64,000 nt of DNA from Thermococcus argininiproducens (GTDB taxonomy: Archaea; Methanobacteriota_B; Thermococci; Thermococcales; Thermococcaceae): assembly GCF_023746595.1 (NCBI RefSeq), contig NZ_CP080572.1, forward strand, positions 620,001 to 684,000, in the 5' to 3' direction. The notes under the pieces were generated by a model that was not told the origin of the DNA, did no database searches, and saw nothing but the letters and a program-made list of their open reading frames with translations. This document shows, piece after piece, positions 28,531 to 49,269 of the stretch. The translations under genes and the position numbers were made by a program. Within the stretch, counting starts at the first letter, position 1. Every line of letters starts with the position of its first letter.

Positions 28531-28546
28531 GGTTCATTTTCTTATC

Positions 28547-28809
28547 TAGTGAAAGCCTCCTCCTTTAAGGCAGGGATGTAAACACCCAAAGGTAGGCATC
28601 GAAAAAGTTAAATATCAACCGTTAGACAATATTCGAGCCACTACAAGACTGTGAGGTCTTGGACAGGCTTTAGCCTGGTTGTACATTTAATAGGCAGCCA
28701 GCGATTCTCCCGTTAGGGAAATAGCCGGTAGTGGCCGCGTGACCCGACCAGTGAGAGTAAGAGTGCATGAGCTCTACGAAGCCTCGCCCCTCAAGGTAAG
28801 GTAGGTCAC
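28547..28809 (+). repeat. Internally deleted IS200/IS605-type element (relic A)
   Basis: The left part (28547-28620) aligns by eye with the left end of the complete element at 47811, including the AAAGGTAGGCATCGAAAAAG segment and the TTAAATA promoter. The right part (about 28688-28809) aligns with the tnpB tail and right end of that element, including CGGTAGTGGCCGCGTGA and the terminal hairpin ending GTAGGTCAC. Nearly all of tnpB is missing. The junction GGCAGCCAGCGATT also occurs in relic B, so both come from one deleted family. It follows TTATC, as does the complete element. Confidence 0.7.
28690..28809 (+). ncRNA. Possible stand-alone omega (guide) RNA segment in relic A
   Basis: In IS200/IS605 elements the RNA that guides TnpB comes from the tnpB tail and right end. 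That segment is kept here without tnpB: CGGTAGTGGCCGCGTGA, a GAGAGTAAG segment and the terminal stem. Bases after 28809 (ACTGGTAAGG...) would be the guide part. Expression is unproven. Confidence 0.3.
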
Positions 28810-28817
28810 ACTGGTAA

Positions 28818-28828
28818 GGTTTATAAAT
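28818..28828 (+). promoter_or_regulatory. TATA box of tRNA-Gln
   Basis: GGTTTATAAATC lies about 30 bases before the tRNA, the usual distance in archaea. It starts nine bases after the right end of relic A, so the insertion stops just short of the promoter. Confidence 0.6.
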
Positions 28829-28854
28829 CTCCCCCTTAACTTAACATCGGGCGC

Positions 28855-28930
28855 AGCCCCGTGGTGTAGTGGCCAAGCATGCGGGACTCTGGATCCCGCG
28901 ACCGGGGTTCGAATCCCCGCGGGGCTACCA
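28855..28930 (+). tRNA. tRNA-Gln (CTG), CCA encoded
   Basis: The acceptor arms AGCCCCG and CGGGGCT pair, and the anticodon stem CGGGA/TCCCG encloses CTCTGGA with anticodon CTG. The T arm is CCGGGGTTCGAATCCCCGC and the CCA is in the DNA. No intron. Confidence 0.95.
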
Positions 28931-29013
28931 AATCGCTGGGCTCCAGATTCTTATTTCTTCTCTTCAAAAACTTTTAAATCCAATGAATTCCTTCTAGATA
29001 AGGAGGTGAGAAA

Positions 29014-29784
29014 ATGTACACCGAAGAACAGCTTTTGGGTGAGATAAAGAGGCTTTTAGGGAATGATGAGCTTTACTCTCTTTATGAGATGACTTACAGA
29101 GAATATAAGCACTATTTTGATACAACAAACTACATAGTCCTTAATATTTATCGGTTTAATGACCATGGTGCTATACATGTGCTTTTAACCACGAGAAGAG
29201 CTCTTGAGGTCTTGAATATTCTCAAAAGGTTCGGAATCAAGACTACAGCTGAGCAACTCGGTAAGTCTTTTGAATGGAGCAAGTTTATAGTGGCTTTTGG
29301 GGCCCTGTTTCATGATATCGGGAATATGATCCACAGGGATAATCACTATGAGTTTAGTGTTCTTTTAGCTGAACCCATGGTGGATGGCCTCGCTAAAAAA
29401 TTCGAGAAGGAAGATTGGCTTCTTCTAAAGGCACTTACTTTAAATGCCATCTACACCCATGACGAAGCCGTTCCATGTACGACAATTGAGGGGAGCTGTG
29501 TTACCATAGCAGATGGGTGTGATATGGAGGAGGGGAGAAGTAGATTGGCCTACAAGAGGGATAAGGTGGATATACATGCAGTTTCAGCACTAGCTATAGA
29601 TAAAGTGGAGATAAAAGAAGGAGACCCTGAGGCTCCTATCCTCGTGGAAGCTTGGATGAAGCATTTAGCTGGAATATTCCAGGTGGATGAGATCCTTACA
29701 AAGAAAGTTAAAAGCTCTCTTTTGAGTGGGAGGGTTAGGATTAGGATACACGCTGGTGACGAAATCTTGGAAAAGGTGGTATAA
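29014..29784 (+). CDS. HD domain phosphohydrolase
   Basis: 256 residues. The metal site H...HD...D is seen as His54 or 55 (GAIHVLL), HD in ALFHDIGN (about 99-100) and Asp in VTIADGCDM (about 167). The C-terminal third is charged and may be an extra domain. Substrate unknown. RelA/SpoT-like and nucleotidase activities are both known among HD proteins. AGGAGGTGAGAAA precedes the ATG. Its stop overlaps the next ATG by one base (TAATG), so the two are one operon. Confidence 0.85.
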   Translation: MYTEEQLLGEIKRLLGNDELYSLYEMTYREYKHYFDTTNYIVLNIYRFNDHGAIHVLLTTRRALEVLNILKRFGIKTTAEQLGKSFEWSKFIVAFGALFHDIGNMIHRDNHYEFSVLLAEPMVDGLAKKFEKEDWLLLKALTLNAIYTHDEAVPCTTIEGSCVTIADGCDMEEGRSRLAYKRDKVDIHAVSALAIDKVEIKEGDPEAPILVEAWMKHLAGIFQVDEILTKKVKSSLLSGRVRIRIHAGDEILEKVV

Positions 29785-30446
29785 TGTTATTTTTGGCTTA
29801 CGAAGATTTAAAATATCTGCTGAACCGAGGGTATAGGAAAAAGTATGCCCTTGAATTCGTGGCTAACCACTATCTTCTCACTTCCAAAGAGAGGTACTTT
29901 TTAATGAGATGTGTTTTCTCAGATAAGGAAATCGAAGAAAGGAAAAGGAAACTGCTAAAAAAAGATGAGCTCAGGGGGAAAGTTATTGGCATCGATGGAT
30001 TTAACGTCCTGATAACTCTTGAATCTCTACTGGGGGGAGAGGCAATTCTATGTGAAGATGGCTTTTTAAGAGATTTAAAACATCAAGGAGGTTACAGGCT
30101 ACATGAGGATACATCAAAAATTCTTGAGCTACTAGTAGGGTTCTTGAGTAATATGGGGGTTAAAGAAGCATGGTTTTTATACGATTCTCCTGTGAGCAGG
30201 AGCGGAGAAATAGCTAAGTTGACTGAGGAAATTATGGTGAGATTTAAGGTTCCTGGAAAAGTTAGCCTATCTAAATCTCCAGACCATGATTTGAAGAGGT
30301 TTGAAGTAGTTGCAAGTTCGGATATTGCAGTGATCCAAAAAGTGCCCTTAGCTGTTGACATACCAAAGATGATAGCAGAAGATAGAGGGTTGAGGTGGAT
30401 ATACTTTCTTGAAATTCTGGAGGATCCGTATCTACTAAAATCTTAA
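29784..30446 (+). CDS. DUF434 family protein
   Basis: 220 residues. The first 60 residues (YEDLKYLLNRGYRKKYALEFVANHYLLTSKER) match the DUF434 pattern as I know it. The remainder, from VIGIDGFNVLITLESLL to the LRWIYFLEIL tail, is the associated alpha/beta domain with conserved Asp (GIDGFN, FLYDSPVSRSG) that recalls a nuclease- or PIN-like acidic site. Function not established. Translationally coupled to the HD protein. Confidence 0.8.
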   Translation: MLFLAYEDLKYLLNRGYRKKYALEFVANHYLLTSKERYFLMRCVFSDKEIEERKRKLLKKDELRGKVIGIDGFNVLITLESLLGGEAILCEDGFLRDLKHQGGYRLHEDTSKILELLVGFLSNMGVKEAWFLYDSPVSRSGEIAKLTEEIMVRFKVPGKVSLSKSPDHDLKRFEVVASSDIAVIQKVPLAVDIPKMIAEDRGLRWIYFLEILEDPYLLKS

Positions 30447-30575
30447 CCATTAGATTCTTTTTTGATCTTGGGAATTTATTTGAAGATTTAGAAAACTATT
30501 TATACTTACGCGCCTTAATAATTTTTATACTATGTTCTTGTCCGCTTTGTTTTTTGCGGACTCTTAGGGGTGGGA

Positions 30576-31664
30576 ATGATGAGGAAAATTGGCTACACTC
30601 TGGCCCTGCTTTTAGTAGGGCTTGTGATAATTAGCGGCTGTATAGGCGGAGAAAAGATCACTGAGAGCATTAAGGAAGAAGCAAGCAGCGTCATAGAAAG
30701 CTATACTGAAAGTCAAAGTGAGTCTGTCACAGAAACTGAGGAGTATACTACAACGGAGTCTCCACCAGAAACCTCTACTGAAACTCAGGCTCCTGCAATT
30801 TGGGAAACTCCTTGGGATGCTTATCATCCAGTAACAATAGACGGGGAACAGTATCTGATAGTTTACATTAAATACTATCTTCGGGTCAGGACGGAAGAAG
30901 GAGGGGAGATTTACGAATATGAAGTGGAAAAGAAACGTGGAAAAGTGAAAATACATGTATATGGAAATCAGATTAATATGGAGACAGGAGAACAGCAGAA
31001 AGTAGATCTAGGTGAATTTGAAGTCTATGAATATTACGGAAAAATAACCCCTATTAAAGGGGAGGAGATGGAAAATCCACTAGAATTCAAAGTTTGGGTA
31101 AAGGAGAGGACTGAAGATAGTGATACATTCTTCCTTCTACCTTCTCTTGACTTCATGACATTATATGGAGCAGTATACATGGGAGGAGGAGATGTTATTG
31201 GAATCTCCATAACCTATGGAGATCAAAAATTCCTTTTCTATAATCCTGCAGCAGTCGGAGATATGAGTTCAATGCCATATCAGGAAGGAGATATTGGGAT
31301 AATTTCTAATATTCCTGATGTAGGCAATATCTACACAAGCTGGTATGGTTTTTATACCTTCGGAATATGGGAGGCAATTGCAGGAGAGGATCTTTACAAA
31401 GCTAAGAAAGATTCGTGGGGAGTCATGGGATACATGTTTAACTATGAGATAAACCCTGACGGAAGTATTACCCTAGGAGGAAAATCATTTAGAGTGTCAA
31501 ATGTTAGATGGACATATACCTTTGGAAATGCCCAAGGACAGGGTGAAGCCACATTAACAGCACCACTTCCGGTTCCCATAGAGAGCAAGGGTGTTTTTAT
31601 CAGTGAAGGCGTGAACATCTTTACACACATAAAAATAGAGGACATAGAGTTTGAAAAGATTTGA
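30576..31664 (+). CDS. Secreted lipoprotein of unknown function
   Basis: 362 residues. A hydrophobic signal segment ends in the lipobox-like VIISGCIGG, so the mature protein probably starts at that Cys and is anchored outside the membrane. A Ser/Thr/Glu-rich linker (about residues 30-75) follows, typical of Thermococcales surface proteins. The rest is beta-rich and aromatic. I recognise no catalytic motif. ATG 30576 is preceded by GGGGTGGGA. Stands alone, with a TATA-like ATTTTTATAC about 50 bases upstream. Confidence 0.75.
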   Translation: MMRKIGYTLALLLVGLVIISGCIGGEKITESIKEEASSVIESYTESQSESVTETEEYTTTESPPETSTETQAPAIWETPWDAYHPVTIDGEQYLIVYIKYYLRVRTEEGGEIYEYEVEKKRGKVKIHVYGNQINMETGEQQKVDLGEFEVYEYYGKITPIKGEEMENPLEFKVWVKERTEDSDTFFLLPSLDFMTLYGAVYMGGGDVIGISITYGDQKFLFYNPAAVGDMSSMPYQEGDIGIISNIPDVGNIYTSWYGFYTFGIWEAIAGEDLYKAKKDSWGVMGYMFNYEINPDGSITLGGKSFRVSNVRWTYTFGNAQGQGEATLTAPLPVPIESKGVFISEGVNIFTHIKIEDIEFEKI

Positions 31665-31699
31665 GCAAAACTTATATCTTTTCTTTCATATTTCTTAAC

Positions 31700-32341
31700 A
31701 TGTTTGAGGAACATGAACTAAAAACTAAGTTTATACGAATTGCCGGGAGAAAAATCCACCTCCTTGAGGATAAAGGTGGAGTGATTAGGTATAGGCGGGA
31801 CAATGTGGAGAGACTCATTAAAAATAGTGGAGAAAAGCTCAGAATATTGCCTTCTCCTGCAACTGGTTATGGAGTAAAACTTCTAATGATAAAATTTAAG
31901 GAACCAGTCGTGCTTCCCCCACAGGATTCTTTAATTGGGTTTGTTGAGGCTCCTATAGAGATCGATGTAAAGGTTGGAAACCTAACTATAGACCATTTCA
32001 TCTTGGGCAGAGAGAAATATGCTTTGTACGGGACACTGGAATCGGGAATTATAAGTAGATATCACATAAGTCCCTTTTATCTGGAGGAACCAGATAGTTT
32101 GGGAGTAGCAAAATTGATCGTCTCGAATCCCTCCACTGAGTGGAAATCGCTTGATAGAGTGGTAATTCCAATAAAAGGGACTCCAATGTATTATAAGGAT
32201 AAAAAAGCTTATTATCCATTGATTGTTATCACGATTAAAGATCACATTCCAGAAGTTAACAATACTGGGAGACCTCCGAAGGAGGGATTAAACTCTGTGG
32301 GAATTGAACTAGCTCTTCCAAACTTTCTCATGAGGTGGTGA
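31700..32341 (+). CDS. DUF432 family protein
   Basis: 213 residues, soluble and beta-rich. The YALYGTLESGIISRYH and LGVAKLIVSNPS segments suit the archaeal DUF432 family, whose genes often lie next to MscS channel genes, as here. The TATA-like CTTATATC at about 31669-31676 puts the transcription start very near the ATG at 31700, so translation is probably leaderless. The upstream in-frame start would include the promoter. It ends three bases before the channel gene. Confidence 0.75.
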   Translation: MFEEHELKTKFIRIAGRKIHLLEDKGGVIRYRRDNVERLIKNSGEKLRILPSPATGYGVKLLMIKFKEPVVLPPQDSLIGFVEAPIEIDVKVGNLTIDHFILGREKYALYGTLESGIISRYHISPFYLEEPDSLGVAKLIVSNPSTEWKSLDRVVIPIKGTPMYYKDKKAYYPLIVITIKDHIPEVNNTGRPPKEGLNSVGIELALPNFLMRW

Positions 32342-32344
32342 GAG

Positions 32345-33427
32345 ATGAATGTTACTAATGTATCCACTATTTTTGAACAGGGAGTGTTTGGTGAGAATCT
32401 TTTTCTAACTTTAACTATAGGTGCAGTGATTAAAGCGGTGTTAATTCTTTTGATCGGTCTTGTGTTTGCTAAGATCGTCAAGAGATACCTTATCAACCTT
32501 TCAAGAAGCACCAAGTATGTATGGATAGTGAACGAAGATACAGCGTCAACCCTCCATAACTTAATCATCATAATCGCAGTTGTGTATTCATTTGATGCTC
32601 TTGGAATTCTTTCCTATGAAGTTTTAGGGACAAGTTTAAGCAATCTGCTAACAGCATTCTTAGTCTTTTACTTCTCTTACCTCCTTGCTAAGAAGTCAAA
32701 GGACTATTGGATAATGCGTACTCCTCAACAAAGGCTTCCAGAAGTTCAACTTAAAGCAAAGCTCTTTTATTATATCTTGGTTATCTTAGCGTTTTTTATA
32801 GCTCTTAATATAGCAGGCTTCACAGGAAAATTAACTACCTTATTAGCGGCAGCAGGTATAACGGGTATTGTTTTGGGATTTGCTTCTCAGACTGTTGTTG
32901 CAAACTTCGTTTCGGGAATTTTCATGTATTTTGATAAGCCTCTCAAAATTGGGGATCCTGTTGAAGTTGGTGGTTACTCGGGCATTGTCCACGATATAAG
33001 GATACTCTCCACTAGAATAAGAACGTGGGATGGCCTTTTAGTAAGGATTCCAAATGAAAAGCTCTTTAACAGTGATATAAAAAATCTCCAGAAATACCCT
33101 GCGAGGAGAGTTGATATTATTGTAACTATAGCGTATAAAGAAGACATTCAGAAAACCATTGATCTCATAAAAAGAATGCTTGATGAAATGCCATACGTCT
33201 TAGCAGAACCCGAGCCGGCAGTTTTTGTAGATAATCTTGGGGATAATGGTGTCCACATAGCTGTTAGGGCATGGGCACCTAGTGAGAAGTGGTTTGATGT
33301 AAGAACTCAAATACTCCAGAAGATAAAGGATACTCTCGAAAGAGAGGGAATAGAGATACCATTCCCACAAAGGGTGAATTGGTTTGCTGAGGAGCTTAGG
33401 GTAAGGATTGAGGGAAAGGAGATCTAA
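32345..33427 (+). CDS. MscS-type mechanosensitive channel
   Basis: 360 residues. Hydrophobic N-terminal helices are followed by the pore helix LLAAAGITGIVLGFASQTVVANFVSGIFMYFDKP (about residues 165-200). The beta domain GDPVEVGGYSGIVHDI, with the family's DGLLVRIPNEKL, comes next, then an alpha/beta C-terminus. It would open under osmotic downshock. Coupled to the DUF432 gene, which may modulate it. GGTGAGAG precedes the ATG. Confidence 0.93.
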   Translation: MNVTNVSTIFEQGVFGENLFLTLTIGAVIKAVLILLIGLVFAKIVKRYLINLSRSTKYVWIVNEDTASTLHNLIIIIAVVYSFDALGILSYEVLGTSLSNLLTAFLVFYFSYLLAKKSKDYWIMRTPQQRLPEVQLKAKLFYYILVILAFFIALNIAGFTGKLTTLLAAAGITGIVLGFASQTVVANFVSGIFMYFDKPLKIGDPVEVGGYSGIVHDIRILSTRIRTWDGLLVRIPNEKLFNSDIKNLQKYPARRVDIIVTIAYKEDIQKTIDLIKRMLDEMPYVLAEPEPAVFVDNLGDNGVHIAVRAWAPSEKWFDVRTQILQKIKDTLEREGIEIPFPQRVNWFAEELRVRIEGKEI

Positions 33428-33429
33428 TT

Positions 33430-34593
33430 TCATTCTTTTTCTATTAGAGCATAGAAAAAGCCGATGGTTTTGTGTTTGTGAGGCCATGCTCTCATAGTGC
33501 TAGGAAGAAAACCTTCATCGTAGGGCCCGTTTAAAGGAACCAGCTTTGCCTCACTATGGCGTTTGAGGAACCATGCTATGACTTCCTCATTCTCCTCCCT
33601 CAGCATTGAACATGTTGAGTACAAAAGTCTACCTCCAGGTTTTAAAAGTTCCCATGCACTTTCAAGGAGTTCTTTTTGGGTGGATACTACCTTTGGGATA
33701 TTCTTCTCTCTTAAACGCCATCTAAGTTCAGGGTTTTTTGCTATAGTTCCGTCACTTGTGCAGGGAGCATCGAGAAGGACTTTATCAGCTATCTCTTTTC
33801 CTAGAATTTCGGGGGCTTTTCTTCCATCAGCTTTAATAATTTTTGTAATTTCAACACCTGCTCTCTTTAATACCTCCTTCATACGTTTTATTCTTTGTTT
33901 TTCAATATCAAAGGCATAGATCATGCCCTTGTTCATCATGATCTCTGCCATGTGGGCAGTTTTACCACCGGGGGCTGCTGCTAGATCTACAACAACATCT
34001 CCGGGTTTTGGGGCTAGAATTAGGGAAGCCATTGCAGAGGCCTCCTCTTGAGGTAGGGCAAATCCTTTGTTAAAGAGCCATTCTGGATTAAAAGCATCTG
34101 AGAGTCTCAACACAGTCTTAACTAGTTTGCTTCTCTCAAAACGAATATTTTTGCTTTTAAGATATTCTTCTACCTCTTTCAGGTTTGTTTTGAGAAGGTT
34201 GATCCTTATGCTCATTGGGAGGCTGTCATTGAGTGCTTTAAGAAGGTCTTCAGTCTCCTCTCCAATAAGGCTTCTCATTCTCCTTATGAACCATTCGGGG
34301 AATAGATATTCCCATTTGAGCTTTTTTTCTTTGCTATCGAGCTTGGGGATGTAGTTTAAAATTTTTGGAAGGAGATCATAGTAATAATAACCCACATATG
34401 GATGTGTTCTCTTAGAAAGAAACTGTGCTAGGCCCTTTAAATGGCCTCGTGTTTTTTCATTAGGATCCCTAAAAATAGCGACTTCTATAGCAACTCTAAG
34501 TGTTGCCCTCAGCCATGGGTCTAAGATAAGAGGAGAAGTCCCTACAAGTTCTTCGATAATTTCATCTATAACTCCAAGTCTACGCTGGATAGA
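33430..34593 (-). pseudogene. NOP2/Sun family RNA m5C methyltransferase, C-terminal part (split by IS)
   Basis: 387 codons. This part contains the SAM-binding methyltransferase domain: VVDLAAAPGGKTAHMAE, DAPCTSDGT with the first catalytic Cys, and YSTCSMLREENE with the second. The N-terminal 53 codons lie beyond the insertion at 36017-36175. Joining the two flanks gives ...GVFY|SIQRRLG... in one frame, about 440 residues. An ATG inside the element end (34641) could start a chimeric protein with 16 foreign residues, so some activity may survive without the N-terminal segment. It converges with the mscS gene. Confidence 0.9.
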
Positions 34594-36016
34594 CTGACCT
34601 CCTCCCCGTTTTTTAAGGTGGGGAGGTTTGAGGGGTTTCATTCAAACCCAACATAAAGCGGGTCTTCGACCCCTCTGGGAGGGCCTTCCCCCAATTACCC
34701 CTACCCGCCGTTAAACCCGGCAGGCTCGGGGTTATCTTTTCAACAACCCTCCTCAAAATATTAAAAGCCCCAACCAAATCAGCGTTTAGGACAAGCCCTT
34801 CCACGGGACACTTAAACAAGCCACGAATAAATCTGGCCCCTTCATGGGGCTTCCCGCAGAAGGGGCAAAGCTTTGAAGTGAAAGCCTCATCAACAAGCAA
34901 GACTTGAATACCAAACTCTTCCGAGACTTCCTTCAAGCGTTTGATAACGCTATTGAACCGCCAAACGTGGGAAAGGATGAAATTCTGCTTTTTACCCTTC
35001 TCAGAATTCCTTGCAATTCCCTTTGGATAACCCACGATTATTCTACTAATGCCTAATTGATAGAGTTTCTCAACAGTTTGCCTTACTATAGTGTTGATGT
35101 AGTGTTTTGCTTGAAGTTTTGCTTTTTCATACATTCTTCTAAGTTTTCTGCTTCTTTTGGCTCCGCTCTTGTTGATTTTAGATTGATACTCAGCAATCCG
35201 CTTTTGCCAGTAGAAAGCAATACTCTTGAGCGGCCTCCCATTAACTAAGAATGATTCACCGTTCTCAAGGTAAACGGCCATTAAGTTGTTCACTCCCAAG
35301 TCAATGCCAGCAGTTAAATTGCTTAACGGTTTTCTTGGAAGTTTGACCCAACCGTTTTCAGTTAACTTTTCCTCAACCTTTGAAATTGAAACATGAGCGT
35401 ACCATTTCCCCTTTACCTCATTGTAAATTATTTCTAAACGCCCTTGCTTGCCCTTCAAGTGAATTCTCCCCTTGAATTGAACTTCAAGCCTTTTGAATTT
35501 TCCAAGGCCTTGGAGGATTAATTTGTTCCCTTCAATTTTATACTGGTCTTTTCTGAGGATTATGAGTGGCTTCCCCTCCCTTTTATAGCCTGGAGGTTTT
35601 GGTTTTAACCACTTGGGGAGTTCTTTATTCTTCTTCATTCTAATTTGCGAGAAGAAGTCCCGCCAAGCTTCAGCATTCTTTCTTGCTATTTGTTGAACTG
35701 TTGCAGAGCCGATTTCACGCTTGTACTTCTCGTAAACGATTTTCTCAGTCTTGTTAAAGTCCACTAGCTCGTGGTTAAAGAATTGTTGTCTTCTCAAGTA
35801 GTTCACCTCATTCCAAACTTTAGCTCCAAGGTCAGCTAGCTCGAACAAAATCTTTTCTTGCTCTTTTGAAGGTTGGAGTTTTAGTGTTACTGTCCTCTTC
35901 ATATCAAATTATAGTATAATTTTTAGGCTTTAAAAAAGTAACGCTTTCCTGCTCAAAGGCTTGCTTTAGAATTCCCGCATCCCCGCTCCAAAGGGCGAGG
36001 CTTTCAGGAGAAAAAA
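34594..36016 (-). mobile_element. IS200/IS605-type element with tnpB only
   Basis: 1,423 bases. The left end (36016 downward, minus strand) follows the flank TTTTAC and carries a GCCTCGCCCTTTGGAGC hairpin. The right end has CCTCCCC...GGGGAGG, ending GGTCAG at 34594. There are no terminal inverted repeats and no target duplication, and insertion is 3' of a TTTAC-like target, all usual for this family. No tnpA is present. The interrupted gene reads on in frame if the element is removed exactly. Confidence 0.9.
34613..35902 (-). CDS. tnpB: TnpB / OrfB protein of the IS element
   Basis: 429 residues. RuvC motif I is GIDLGVNNLMAV (Asp about 197) and motif III is LNADLVGAFNI. A zinc-finger region CPFCGKPHEGARF...FKCP lies between. 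At motif II, where many TnpB have a Glu (VVEDL), the sequence is IIVGYPKG, so the second catalytic acid is not where expected. In active family members TnpB is an RNA-guided DNA nuclease. Without tnpA this copy needs a transposase in trans. ATG 35902 lies after AATTATACTATAATT. Confidence 0.9.
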   Translation of the reverse strand: MKRTVTLKLQPSKEQEKILFELADLGAKVWNEVNYLRRQQFFNHELVDFNKTEKIVYEKYKREIGSATVQQIARKNAEAWRDFFSQIRMKKNKELPKWLKPKPPGYKREGKPLIILRKDQYKIEGNKLILQGLGKFKRLEVQFKGRIHLKGKQGRLEIIYNEVKGKWYAHVSISKVEEKLTENGWVKLPRKPLSNLTAGIDLGVNNLMAVYLENGESFLVNGRPLKSIAFYWQKRIAEYQSKINKSGAKRSRKLRRMYEKAKLQAKHYINTIVRQTVEKLYQLGISRIIVGYPKGIARNSEKGKKQNFILSHVWRFNSVIKRLKEVSEEFGIQVLLVDEAFTSKLCPFCGKPHEGARFIRGLFKCPVEGLVLNADLVGAFNILRRVVEKITPSLPGLTAGRGNWGKALPEGSKTRFMLGLNETPQTSPP

Positions 36017-36175
36017 GTAAAATACTCCGGTTAACTTTGAGTTTTCCCACCCATTAATCTTATACTTTGCAAAGGCCTTTCTCTTTGCTTGTTGGCTTGG
36101 CTTTACCTCTTCACCAAGCTTAATTGCTTCAATGAGTGCATATAGCTGCCTGTCGCTCAGTTTAAGTTTTCCCAT
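36017..36175 (-). pseudogene. NOP2/Sun family RNA methyltransferase, N-terminal part (split by IS)
   Basis: 53 codons from ATG 36175 (GAGAGGGATGA before it) to the insertion point. Contains MGKLKLSDRQLYALIEAIK and ends in LTGVFY, a good fit to the NusB-like N-terminal region of archaeal family members. Reading on into the element gives a short false tail ending at 35966. It overlaps the end of the upstream methylase gene by 14 bases. Confidence 0.85.
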
Positions 36176-36785
36176 CTTCATCCCTCTCAAAACGATATAT
36201 GTCAACTAGAATTCTCTCAAGCTTCTTTTTATGGAAGAAAAATTGAGCCGGAATCTCAAAAGGCAAGGTCATGCGATGAGTTATTTTGAATTCGTTGTCT
36301 CTTATGAAGGCTTCTATAAATCTTCTTACCTCAGATTTTGCTAAGTGGATAGAATACACAACATTACTAATCTCAAAAGCCTTTAAAAGAAATGGTCTGT
36401 CTGCTTTTGGGTTTTGGCTTCCAAAAGGGGGGTTCATTATCACGGTATCCACCTTAACATTGAAGTCACTAACATCACTTTCAATGAAGTTTATATTTGT
36501 AATCCCAAGAGTTTTAGCATTTTCTATAGCTATTTTTAAAGCATTTCCATCTTTATCTATTGCATAGACCTTTTTTGCGCCCATTAAACTTGCTCCTATA
36601 CTCAAAACTCCTGTTCCGGCTCCTAAATCAGCTATAACTTTGTCTTTAACCTCCCCTAGTGTGGAAGCTAACCAAAGAAGTTCACTTGCAACATTCCCTG
36701 GGGTTTTATATTGCTCCAGTTCTGGCTTGGGGTCCTTAAAACCCTTAAGATTTGAGAGAATCATTGCAAGGTGTTTCTTTTTCAT
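36162..36785 (-). CDS. METTL5-like nucleic acid methyltransferase (COG2263 type)
   Basis: 207 residues. The SAM motif is VIADLGAGTGVLSIG (about residues 52-66), and motif IV is VIMNPPFGSQNPKADRPFL (about 115-133), the NPPF form expected for N6-adenine methylation. The short length with little beyond the Rossmann domain matches archaeal METTL5 homologues, which probably modify rRNA. ATG 36785 follows GGTGGTAGA. It lies in a run with the membrane protein upstream and the split NOP2/Sun gene downstream, so the IS separates what was a small RNA-modification operon. Confidence 0.85.
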   Translation of the reverse strand: MKKKHLAMILSNLKGFKDPKPELEQYKTPGNVASELLWLASTLGEVKDKVIADLGAGTGVLSIGASLMGAKKVYAIDKDGNALKIAIENAKTLGITNINFIESDVSDFNVKVDTVIMNPPFGSQNPKADRPFLLKAFEISNVVYSIHLAKSEVRRFIEAFIRDNEFKITHRMTLPFEIPAQFFFHKKKLERILVDIYRFERDEDGKT

Positions 36786-36793
36786 TCTACCAC

Positions 36794-37174
36794 CTATGGA
36801 TGAGTTGTTATGTAGTGGAAGAGTTCTTCCCATGTCATATTAAGCTCTAACCCCTCTATCCCAAATACAGTGCCAGCGGTTGTTAATATAAACATTATCA
36901 CAATCACTCCAAGAAGAAATCCAAATTCTGCTGTGAGCGCGACAACAAGGGCTTCTTTTAGGTTTAATTTTATTGGTCGTAGGAGGATTATAAATAGCAC
37001 TAGTATCCCCAAAAACAAGTCTATTTTGAGAGAAACCACAACCCCGAGAATCGAGATAGTCAAAATTGAATAATTCCTTAATTTTTTATACGTAAATACT
37101 TCTAAGGCCGTTTTTAAGAACATATAATAAACAATGACAAGGAGTGCATAAATCACAGTGTCAACGATACTCAT
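36794..37174 (-). CDS. Small membrane protein, function unknown
   Basis: 126 residues with about four hydrophobic helices and a short acidic C-terminus (WEELFHYITTHP). I recognise no family. It ends nine bases before the methylase start and probably shares its transcript. The TATA-like region (ATATAAATC, minus strand, about 37193-37201) lies just upstream, very close to relic B. Confidence 0.6.
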   Translation of the reverse strand: MSIVDTVIYALLVIVYYMFLKTALEVFTYKKLRNYSILTISILGVVVSLKIDLFLGILVLFIILLRPIKLNLKEALVVALTAEFGFLLGVIVIMFILTTAGTVFGIEGLELNMTWEELFHYITTHP

Positions 37175-37227
37175 GGAAGAGAATTTGAGCTTTGATTTAT
37201 ATATTCTTTCCGAAAACCTTGGCGTTC

Positions 37228-37432
37228 AAAGTGAGATGTAATCACTCCAAAGTGAGCATCAAAAGATTTAAACACTCTTGCCAATAGTAATGAGTGATTC
37301 AATACATTTAAGAGGCAGTCAGCGATTTCTGCCGTTAGGGAAACAGCTGGTAGTGGTTGTATGGTCCGGCCGGGGAGAGTAAGGGTGCAGTGAACTCTCA
37401 CGAAGTCCTGTCTTTGTGGCGGGGTAGGTCAC
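37228..37432 (+). repeat. Internally deleted IS200/IS605-type element (relic B)
   Basis: About 205 bases; the left border is approximate. GTAATGAGTGATTCAAT matches the tnpB start region of the complete element at 47901. The right part shares GGCAGTCAGCGATTTC, GGTAGTGGTTG and the final GGTAGGTCAC with relic A. The same deletion junction in A and B points to a MITE-like family mobilised in trans. The terminal GTCAC contains the dph2 stop codon on the other strand. Confidence 0.7.
37310..37432 (+). ncRNA. Possible stand-alone omega (guide) RNA segment in relic B
   Basis: The tnpB-tail/right-end part is kept without tnpB, as in relic A, but more diverged (GGTAGTGGTTGTATGGTCC). The guide part would read into the end of dph2 (AAAGCTTTTGGG...). 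Expression is unproven. Confidence 0.25.
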
Positions 37433-44528: not shown

Positions 44529-44660
44529 TTCTAATCACCACTCGGAGGTTGTAGCGGAGGATTATTAAAAGCTTTTTGGAAATGGGAAGAAAAGAAAGGA
44601 ATCAGCGAAGCGAAGACTCCTCATCGCATTGCTCGGGTGTCCTCGGCCTCATCATGCGTT

Positions 44661-47783: not shown

Positions 47784-47810
47784 CTTCACTTTTGATGCCA
47801 TGCTTTTATC

Positions 47811-49205
47811 TTTTTGGGAAGACTCCTTCCGAGAGGGAAGAGTGTAGACACTCTAAAGGTGGGCACCGAAAGACTTAAATACTTTTTACTCTGCTGCATA
47901 GTAATGAGTGAGTCCAATGTACTTGACGCAAAAGAATCACCTCCGAGTGGACAAGAAGACTTACAAACTTCTTCGTATACTAACTCACTTATCCAAAGAC
48001 TTGTACAACCTCACTTTGTACGTGACGAGACAACACTACGAACTTAATGGAATTTTTCTACCCTATGCTAGGGCCTACCACTTGCTCAAAAACAGCATCC
48101 CGTACAAATTATTGCCAAGTCAAGCGGCCCAGCAAACCATGAAAATCGTGGAGAGAAACTACCGCTCATTCTTCAGACTATTAAAAGAGCGAAAGAAAGG
48201 TAACTACAATAGGCCAATTCGCCCGCCAAAGTTTTTACCGAAAGACGGGCATTTCCTCCTAATCTTCCCTTACCAGTCCTTCAAGGTTAAAGAGGATAAA
48301 GTCATCCTAACCCTCGGGCGAAACTTTGCCAAAAAGTTTGGCGTAATGCACCTTGAAATCCCCCTCCCAAAGAATGTCAAGGGGCATAGAATAAAGGAAA
48401 TCCGCATTTTGCCAAAGTATAACGCCTTGTGGTTTGAGGTTGAGTACGTTTACGAGGTTGAGCCTGAAAAGAAGGGTTTGGATTACTCAAAGTACTTGGC
48501 TATTGATTTGGGTGTTGATAATTTTGCAACTTGTGTCTCCACCACTGGGACGGCCTTCGTTGTTGAAGGCCGGTGGTTGAAGAGTTTTAACCAGTGGTGG
48601 AATAAGAAAAAAGCCAAGTTGCAAAGCCAATATGACAAACAAGGAGTAAAATTCGGCAGAAGGATGGCTCGGCTTTTGAGGAAGAGAAAGAACGTGATGA
48701 ATAATTTCATGAATCAAGCCGTGAATTACATCATCAAGTACTGCTTGGAGAATAAGATTGGAAGCATTGTAATTGGAAAGTTGGAAGAGGCGAAGCAGAG
48801 GATTTCCTTGGGGAAAGTGAATAATCAGAACTTCCAATTCATTCCTTACGGCCTCTTCAAGCGAAAATTAAAGGCAAAGTGCGAGCGTTACGGGATTAAC
48901 TTCATTGAAGTTGATGAAGCTTACACGAGTAAGGTTGATGCCTTGGCTTTAGAGCCTTTGGAAAAGAAGGAAAAGTATTGGGGGAAGAGGGTGAAGAGAG
49001 GCCTCTTTCAGTCTTCAACTGGAGTTTTAATTAATGCTGATGTGAATGGTGCTTTGAACATTTTGCGGAAAGTAGCCGGCGATTCCCTCGTTGGAGGGAT
49101 AGTCGGTAGTGGCCGCGTGAACCGGCCCGTGAGAGTGAGGCTACCGGCAACGGGACGCCGAATGAACTCTCACAAAGCCCCGTCCATAAGGGCGGGGCAG
49201 TTCAC
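47811..49205 (+). mobile_element. IS200/IS605-type element with tnpB only (complete)
   Basis: About 1,395 bases. The left end follows TTTTATC and contains CTCCTTCCGAGAGGGAAGAG and GTGTAGACAC palindromic parts, then AAAGGTGGGCACCG and a TTAAATAC promoter. The right end is a CCCCGTCCATAAGGGCGGGG hairpin ending GTTCAC at 49205. There is no tnpA, no inverted termini and no target duplication. It is the likely source family of relics A and B. Confidence 0.85.
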
Positions 49206-49269
49206 TTCTTTTGAAGGTTTGTATTTTAGATACTCTTCGGTGATGAGTATTGAAAAAGTTAAAAATTAA
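47917..49269 (+). CDS. tnpB: TnpB / OrfB protein, zinc finger missing
   Basis: About 450 residues. RuvC motif I is AIDLGVDNFATC and motif III is INADVNGALNIL. Motif II reads SIVIGKLEEAKQ, without the Glu seen in many TnpB. The zinc-finger region has no Cys pairs: after VDEAYTSK it runs VDALALEPLEKKEKYW. Both departures are shared with a known branch of OrfB proteins, but they make nuclease activity uncertain. The frame reads past the element's right end at 49205 to a chromosomal stop at 49269. GTG 47908 is an alternative start. Confidence 0.88.
   Translation: MYLTQKNHLRVDKKTYKLLRILTHLSKDLYNLTLYVTRQHYELNGIFLPYARAYHLLKNSIPYKLLPSQAAQQTMKIVERNYRSFFRLLKERKKGNYNRPIRPPKFLPKDGHFLLIFPYQSFKVKEDKVILTLGRNFAKKFGVMHLEIPLPKNVKGHRIKEIRILPKYNALWFEVEYVYEVEPEKKGLDYSKYLAIDLGVDNFATCVSTTGTAFVVEGRWLKSFNQWWNKKKAKLQSQYDKQGVKFGRRMARLLRKRKNVMNNFMNQAVNYIIKYCLENKIGSIVIGKLEEAKQRISLGKVNNQNFQFIPYGLFKRKLKAKCERYGINFIEVDEAYTSKVDALALEPLEKKEKYWGKRVKRGLFQSSTGVLINADVNGALNILRKVAGDSLVGGIVGSGRVNRPVRVRLPATGRRMNSHKAPSIRAGQFTSFEGLYFRYSSVMSIEKVKN
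49075..49205 (+). ncRNA. Possible omega (guide) RNA at the right end of the element
   Basis: Overlaps the tnpB tail. AGTCGGTAGTGGCCGCGTGA and GTGAGAGTGAGG are kept in relics A and B, and the segment ends in the CCCCGTCC/GGGCGGGG stem, the layout of guide RNAs of this family. The guide would begin at 49206. Not shown to be expressed. Confidence 0.4.

Follow-up and report, generated by a model that had tools for sequence, protein, structure and literature searches.

Can a transposon remnant that has lost its tnpB gene, and kept the part of it that encodes a guide RNA, still supply guides to a TnpB protein encoded elsewhere in the genome? The question is raised by two short elements, relics A and B, which lie in a stretch of 64,000 nucleotides of the Thermococcus argininiproducens genome (the window). 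A sequence-only reading had proposed that both derive from an IS605-type element and could act in trans with a related tnpB at 47.9 kb. We find that A and B are real tnpB-less elements and not chance resemblances; both contain the tnpB coding end and the right end.

Relic A (28546..28809, plus strand, 264 bp) belongs to a class with a two-hairpin leader, and relic B (37201..37432, plus strand, 232 bp) to a short-leader class. Each follows a TTAT motif, lacks tnpB and has a 3' part made of the tnpB coding end plus a right end, the same right end as that of the tnpB element at 47810-49205. Relic A is flanked by CTTAT on its 5' side and by ACTGGTAAGGTTTATAAATC, its would-be guide, on its 3' side; for relic B these are TTTAT and AAAGCTTTTGGGAGCTTCAA. 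In relic A, a TATA-like element (GTTAAATA; 28607..28614, plus strand, 86 nt 5' of the scaffold), with a BRE-like CGAAAAA just before it, is followed by a leader that runs from downstream of this box to 28692 and forms two hairpins (28644..28676, plus strand; CAAGACT-GTGA-GGTCTTG and AGGC-TTTA-GCCT), and then by a decayed scaffold with the right end (28693..28809, plus strand). Relic B has its TATA-like element (TTTAAACA; 37267..37274, plus strand) 47 nt 5' of the scaffold, a short leader built from the tnpB start, and its scaffold and right end at 37314..37432 (plus strand). These boundaries are supported by empty alleles in related genomes. That of relic B in G079 is exact, with TTTAT joined directly to AAAGG, and those of relic A in G079 and G084 have an exact 3' junction (ACTGGTAAGG) and a mutated 5' target. 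The joined-flank query used for empty sites comprised 2537 of about 2600 bases, so that query coordinates are slightly shifted, with no effect on the conclusions. At window 37174-37201, relic B interrupts the TATA box of a minus-strand gene (36794-37174), and the outer end of the relic restores an A/T-rich box.

The motif GGCAG[C/T]CAGCGATT had been taken as a deletion junction shared by A and B. This was a mistake: it is the start of the scaffold, encoding V-A-G-D-S in tnpB, and the 14-mer is present in all 20 good copies in the genome, including the full tnpB genes (where it reads GTAGCCGGCGATT, with a few substitutions). Nor do A and B form a pair of their own, being 2 of 15 relics in the genome. 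The two also differ in architecture, through the leaders described above. We dropped the idea of one common deletion behind A and B, because their leaders differ when aligned.

Viewed across the family, the leaders fall into classes. Class I relics, which are B and 12 others in the genome, consist of a left end, BRE/TATA elements, a leader of about 20 predicted transcribed nucleotides derived from the tnpB start, and the scaffold. Relic A, L002 and one G079 copy have the longer two-hairpin leader, which no tnpB-carrying copy examined has; a leader with the same layout recurs in some 20 copies from G078, G082 and G083. Its hairpins are 97.5% paired; a test for covariation in the leader hairpins alone was not significant. 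L191, in G082, represents a separate and clearly independent deletion with a different junction; like several of the leader types, it ends on the 5' boundary of the scaffold or close to it.

What the relics have in common is this scaffold. It occupies the position of an omega RNA, covering the 3' end of tnpB and the right end and lying next to the guide, and it spans about 134 nt with four stems and a pseudoknot and shows compensatory changes. In an alignment of 46 copies containing relics only, 96.2% of cells are paired and 12 pairs are changed on both sides; the covariation is 0.186, compared with 0.110 for shuffles and 0.04-0.08 for slid controls, in which pairing falls to 37-50%. The pseudoknot pairs the 6 nt that directly precede the guide (GUUCAC) with a hairpin loop (GUGAAC) and itself covaries, being GGUCAC:GUGACC in four relics. 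It is placed as in the ISDra2 TnpB omega RNA, in whose structure the bases just before the guide pair far upstream and not with a nearer candidate (PMC10097598). The relic scaffold variants CCTCC:GGAGG and CCCTC:GAGGG also occur in the tnpB copies that share their genome; some of the covariation may therefore stem from recombination with tnpB, with no selection on the relics. For the family as a whole, the proposal that the kept segment is an omega RNA is supported by the fold with its pseudoknot, the kept promoter and the presence of intact cognate TnpBs. A scan of the window with Rfam gave no omega-RNA family at gathering score, and placed a C/D-box RNA, sR45, at 44600-44659.

Copies were collected in three ways: by searching the genome at the DNA level, by searching for the tnpB protein, and with a covariance model based on 19 copies. 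The 1.946 Mb genome holds 20 good scaffold copies, 15 of them tnpB-less and 5 within tnpB genes (3 intact, 2 broken), so that omega RNAs with no nuclease ORF coexist with intact cognate tnpB genes. TTAT lies directly 5' of 17 of the 20, target duplication is absent, and the element ends, with subterminal hairpins, are those of the tnpB copies. Empty sites exist in relatives for relic B, L005, L006, L007, L018, L019 and others. Of the 94 genomes of the family, 35 contain matches. Relatives carry dozens of copies, with large relic populations in T. argininiproducens, G078, G082 and G083, while nearly all of the strong copies examined outside the genus retain tnpB, as do those in G074-G077. Could A and B nevertheless be isolated, unrelated deletion scars of no significance? 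Neither has a stable fold and their leaders differ, as such scars might; yet their ends, TAM, scaffold and layout are common to 13 other relics in the genome and to dozens in relatives. As an account of the family, this explanation is refuted by the copy number and the shared architecture, and we give it very little credence for A and B. The genome also has partial copies: L058, L057 and L059 (281.9, 688.3 and 1902.2 kb) are short left-end fragments with roughly the first 30 tnpB codons and no right end. In L010 (568.7 kb) the left end of a tnpB copy adjoins an inverted right end and not TTAT.

The complete tnpB-bearing element in the window (47810..49205, plus strand) has TTTTAT as its 5' flank and ends in ..GCAGTTCAC. 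Its tnpB (47908..49269, plus strand) encodes 453 aa with the RuvC acidic residues D200, E293/E294 and D378, and with no CxxC at the usual place of the CxxC zinc finger. An intact omega-RNA scaffold (49071..49205, plus strand; 164 bits, fold z -5.9) lies within its 3' end. The reading frame meets no stop inside the element and reads through the right end into the flank. A second TnpB, encoded between A and B at 34613-35902, is only 28% identical and represents a different TnpB lineage, of which the genome holds several intact copies.

Against these copies, A and B fare poorly. Their scaffolds score 98 bits (A, model R1) and 86.5 bits (B, the lowest of the 20 good copies under the covariance model), compared with 133-166 for the other 18. 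The fold z of A is -0.2 with the leader and -0.9 for the scaffold only, that of B -0.7 and -0.3, whereas tnpB copies reach about -5 and the relics of this genome have a median of -3.5. A and B are thus the two most decayed copies, and they are unlikely to serve as working guides, the role in which the sequence-only reading had cast them; both have lost stable folding. Their targets give the same answer. The guide of relic B begins AAAGCT, whereas the empty allele of the sister genome has AAAGGC, a difference at positions 5-6, and for relic A the empty alleles of relatives have no TTAT motif. The further suggestion that a matching site is repressed found no support within the window, where near-matches to TAM plus guide are the right ends of the relics themselves and others at chance level only.

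A TATA-like box 5' of the scaffold is kept in 15 of 15 relics of this genome, at 45-47 nt in most short-leader relics and 86 nt in the long-leader class. L006 (1281.3-1281.6 kb of the genome), an intact copy, has a native TATA box on one side and on the other the one tRNA-Thr(CGU) gene that was found, exactly 17 nt beyond its right end. Simple BRE/TATA scoring gave no TATA-like site between the start of the L006 scaffold and the tRNA. The tRNA would therefore be reachable only by transcription through the scaffold, and by this layout the L006 scaffold is very probably transcribed. The same site and arrangement occur in L198 of G082 (upstream flank 81% identical), the elements being 87% identical and the coding flank 81%, and the site is empty in G079, G084 and G078, including the close sister of each carrier. 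One way to view such stand-alone omega-RNA genes is as a pool of many guides for few TnpBs, in which proteinless elements would be kept by the cutting of empty alleles, and one of which would by now have become an obligatory promoter and leader for a tRNA, with tRNA 5' processing trimming its guide to 17 nt. We offer this larger picture tentatively, as a possibility that falls short of even chances. Several relics have tRNA genes (Gln, Thr, Met, Val) within about 150 nt (window 28855-28927, L006, L019, L199), a proximity for which enrichment above the intergenic expectation is not established.

A further reading is host domestication, in which individual relics would be kept for guides that repress or regulate a neighbouring site with a TnpB-like protein. 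In its favour, several relics are found in promoter regions, B interrupting the TATA box of the adjacent gene, and the site beside tRNA-Thr(CGU) is occupied in two distant genomes. Conservation of orthologous relics, considered as a sign of host use, fails. Relic B is 79.8% identical to its ortholog in G084, itself a decayed copy, with flanks at 89-94%, and the orthologs L002 and L154 are 85.4% identical, with flanks at 93-95%. That the relics diverge faster than their flanks argues against domestication, as does their absence in close sisters. In addition, the cognate TnpB keeps its catalytic residues and the guides of A and B have no promoter match in the window, neither of which fits a TldR-type repressor, and their TAM plus guide matches elsewhere in the window do not exceed chance. 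Host domestication is thus disfavoured, and we consider it highly improbable.

Another line of evidence concerns how relics come and go. Relic B is absent from G079 and leaves no scar there, although the flanks place G079 nearer to T. argininiproducens than G084, which carries B; a copy at 474 kb has the same pattern of presence and absence. Precise excision is the usual behaviour of IS200/IS605 elements and would explain the scarless absence, for which replacement by recombination is also possible. In G084 all copies are decayed and a cognate tnpB is absent. G079, a draft assembly, has two well-kept intact relics and no tnpB was found in it, so the correlation between tnpB and relic preservation is not clean. 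The genome contains a single TnpA, and the end hairpins of its element (CTCCTTCCGAAAGGGAGG; ..GGGGGTAGTTCAC) are very similar to those of the relics, making it a possible helper of the relics in trans.

This similarity brings in the main rival, which is a serious one. The relics may be plain MITEs, left by internal deletions of tnpB and moved in trans by a Y1 transposase through their end hairpins, in which the scaffold is a passenger with no RNA function and owes its recognisable state to the youth of the copies and to recombination with tnpB genes. The hairpins of the TnpA element fit this account, and so do the decay of old copies and the loss of the promoter or part of the scaffold in L148, L193, L196, L197, L020 and L255. 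IS605-derived PATEs and MITEs are, moreover, well known. However, IS200/IS605 transposition requires neither the promoter nor the whole scaffold, yet both are retained in most young copies, together with an intact pseudoknot. Different leader classes also end at the same scaffold edge, and the TnpA element has the apparent target TTTAAC, as against TTTAT for the relics. We therefore regard passive hitch-hiking as a real possibility, yet one with less than an even chance of being correct.

Given the anatomy, copy number, conserved pairing and insertion after TTAT observed here, we lean, on somewhat better than even grounds, towards the relics being a family of guide-RNA-only miniature IS605-type elements that would load TnpB in trans. 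Each begins with a left end that bears an archaeal BRE/TATA promoter, continues with a short leader and the omega-RNA scaffold, pseudoknot included, and closes with the right end; the sequence 3' of the insertion would become the guide. The elements would be moved in trans by a Y1 transposase and transcribed from their own promoters. The relic RNA would then load the cognate TnpB, empty alleles on sister chromosomes, which are numerous in polyploid Thermococcus, would be cut, and the cut alleles would be refilled from the occupied copy. Such homing in trans is plausible because TnpB acts in gene drive and retention among multicopy DNA (PMC11870625) and Thermococcus kodakarensis carries 7-19 chromosomes (PMC4502288). 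A and B would be old, decaying members whose activity has probably been lost.

By analogy, the relics are best read as equivalents, for an archaeal TnpB, of the Fanzor ghost loci. These loci, described in Spizellomyces punctatus, contain an omega RNA but no protein gene, and their RNAs acted in trans with SpuFz1 in human cells (Saito et al. 2023, PMC10432273). In both, nuclease-less copies outnumber the nuclease genes, keep their ends and the guide-adjacent omega RNA, and have stem variants of their own (PMC10432273). Fanzor, however, is eukaryotic and flanked by inverted repeats, whereas the relics have an archaeal TnpB, IS605-type hairpin ends and an archaeal promoter, and their activity in trans is predicted from sequence where that of the ghost RNAs was assayed in cells. 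The relics resemble PATEs of Haloquadratum and Halanaerobium in being short and transposase-free, with IS605-type hairpin ends and no target duplication, but PATEs are described as palindromic ends only and the relics retain a guide-RNA scaffold and a promoter (PMC3119063, PMC7290912). As in the ISDra2 omega RNA (reRNA), the relic RNA would start in the 3' end of tnpB and continue across the right end, with a guide from the 3' flank and a terminal pseudoknot, and the motif 5' of the insertion occupies the place of the TAM; unlike in ISDra2, the relic RNA gene stands apart from tnpB with its own promoter and leader. Altae-Tran et al. 2021 reportedly found stand-alone IscB omega RNAs in Ktedonobacter racemifer, with many nuclease-less copies in one genome. 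Those belong to IscB, in a bacterium, and have a different scaffold, whereas the relics belong to an archaeal TnpB.

If the preferred reading of the relics as guide-only elements holds, archaea have parasites of TnpB that consist of a guide alone, comparable to the ghost loci of Fanzor, and one nuclease can serve many guide genes that are independent of one another. Such sharing is related to the presumed origin of CRISPR arrays. The role of TnpB in retention could be tested in T. argininiproducens by deletion of three genes. The family also offers naturally occurring variants of a thermophilic omega RNA that is compact and has its own promoter.
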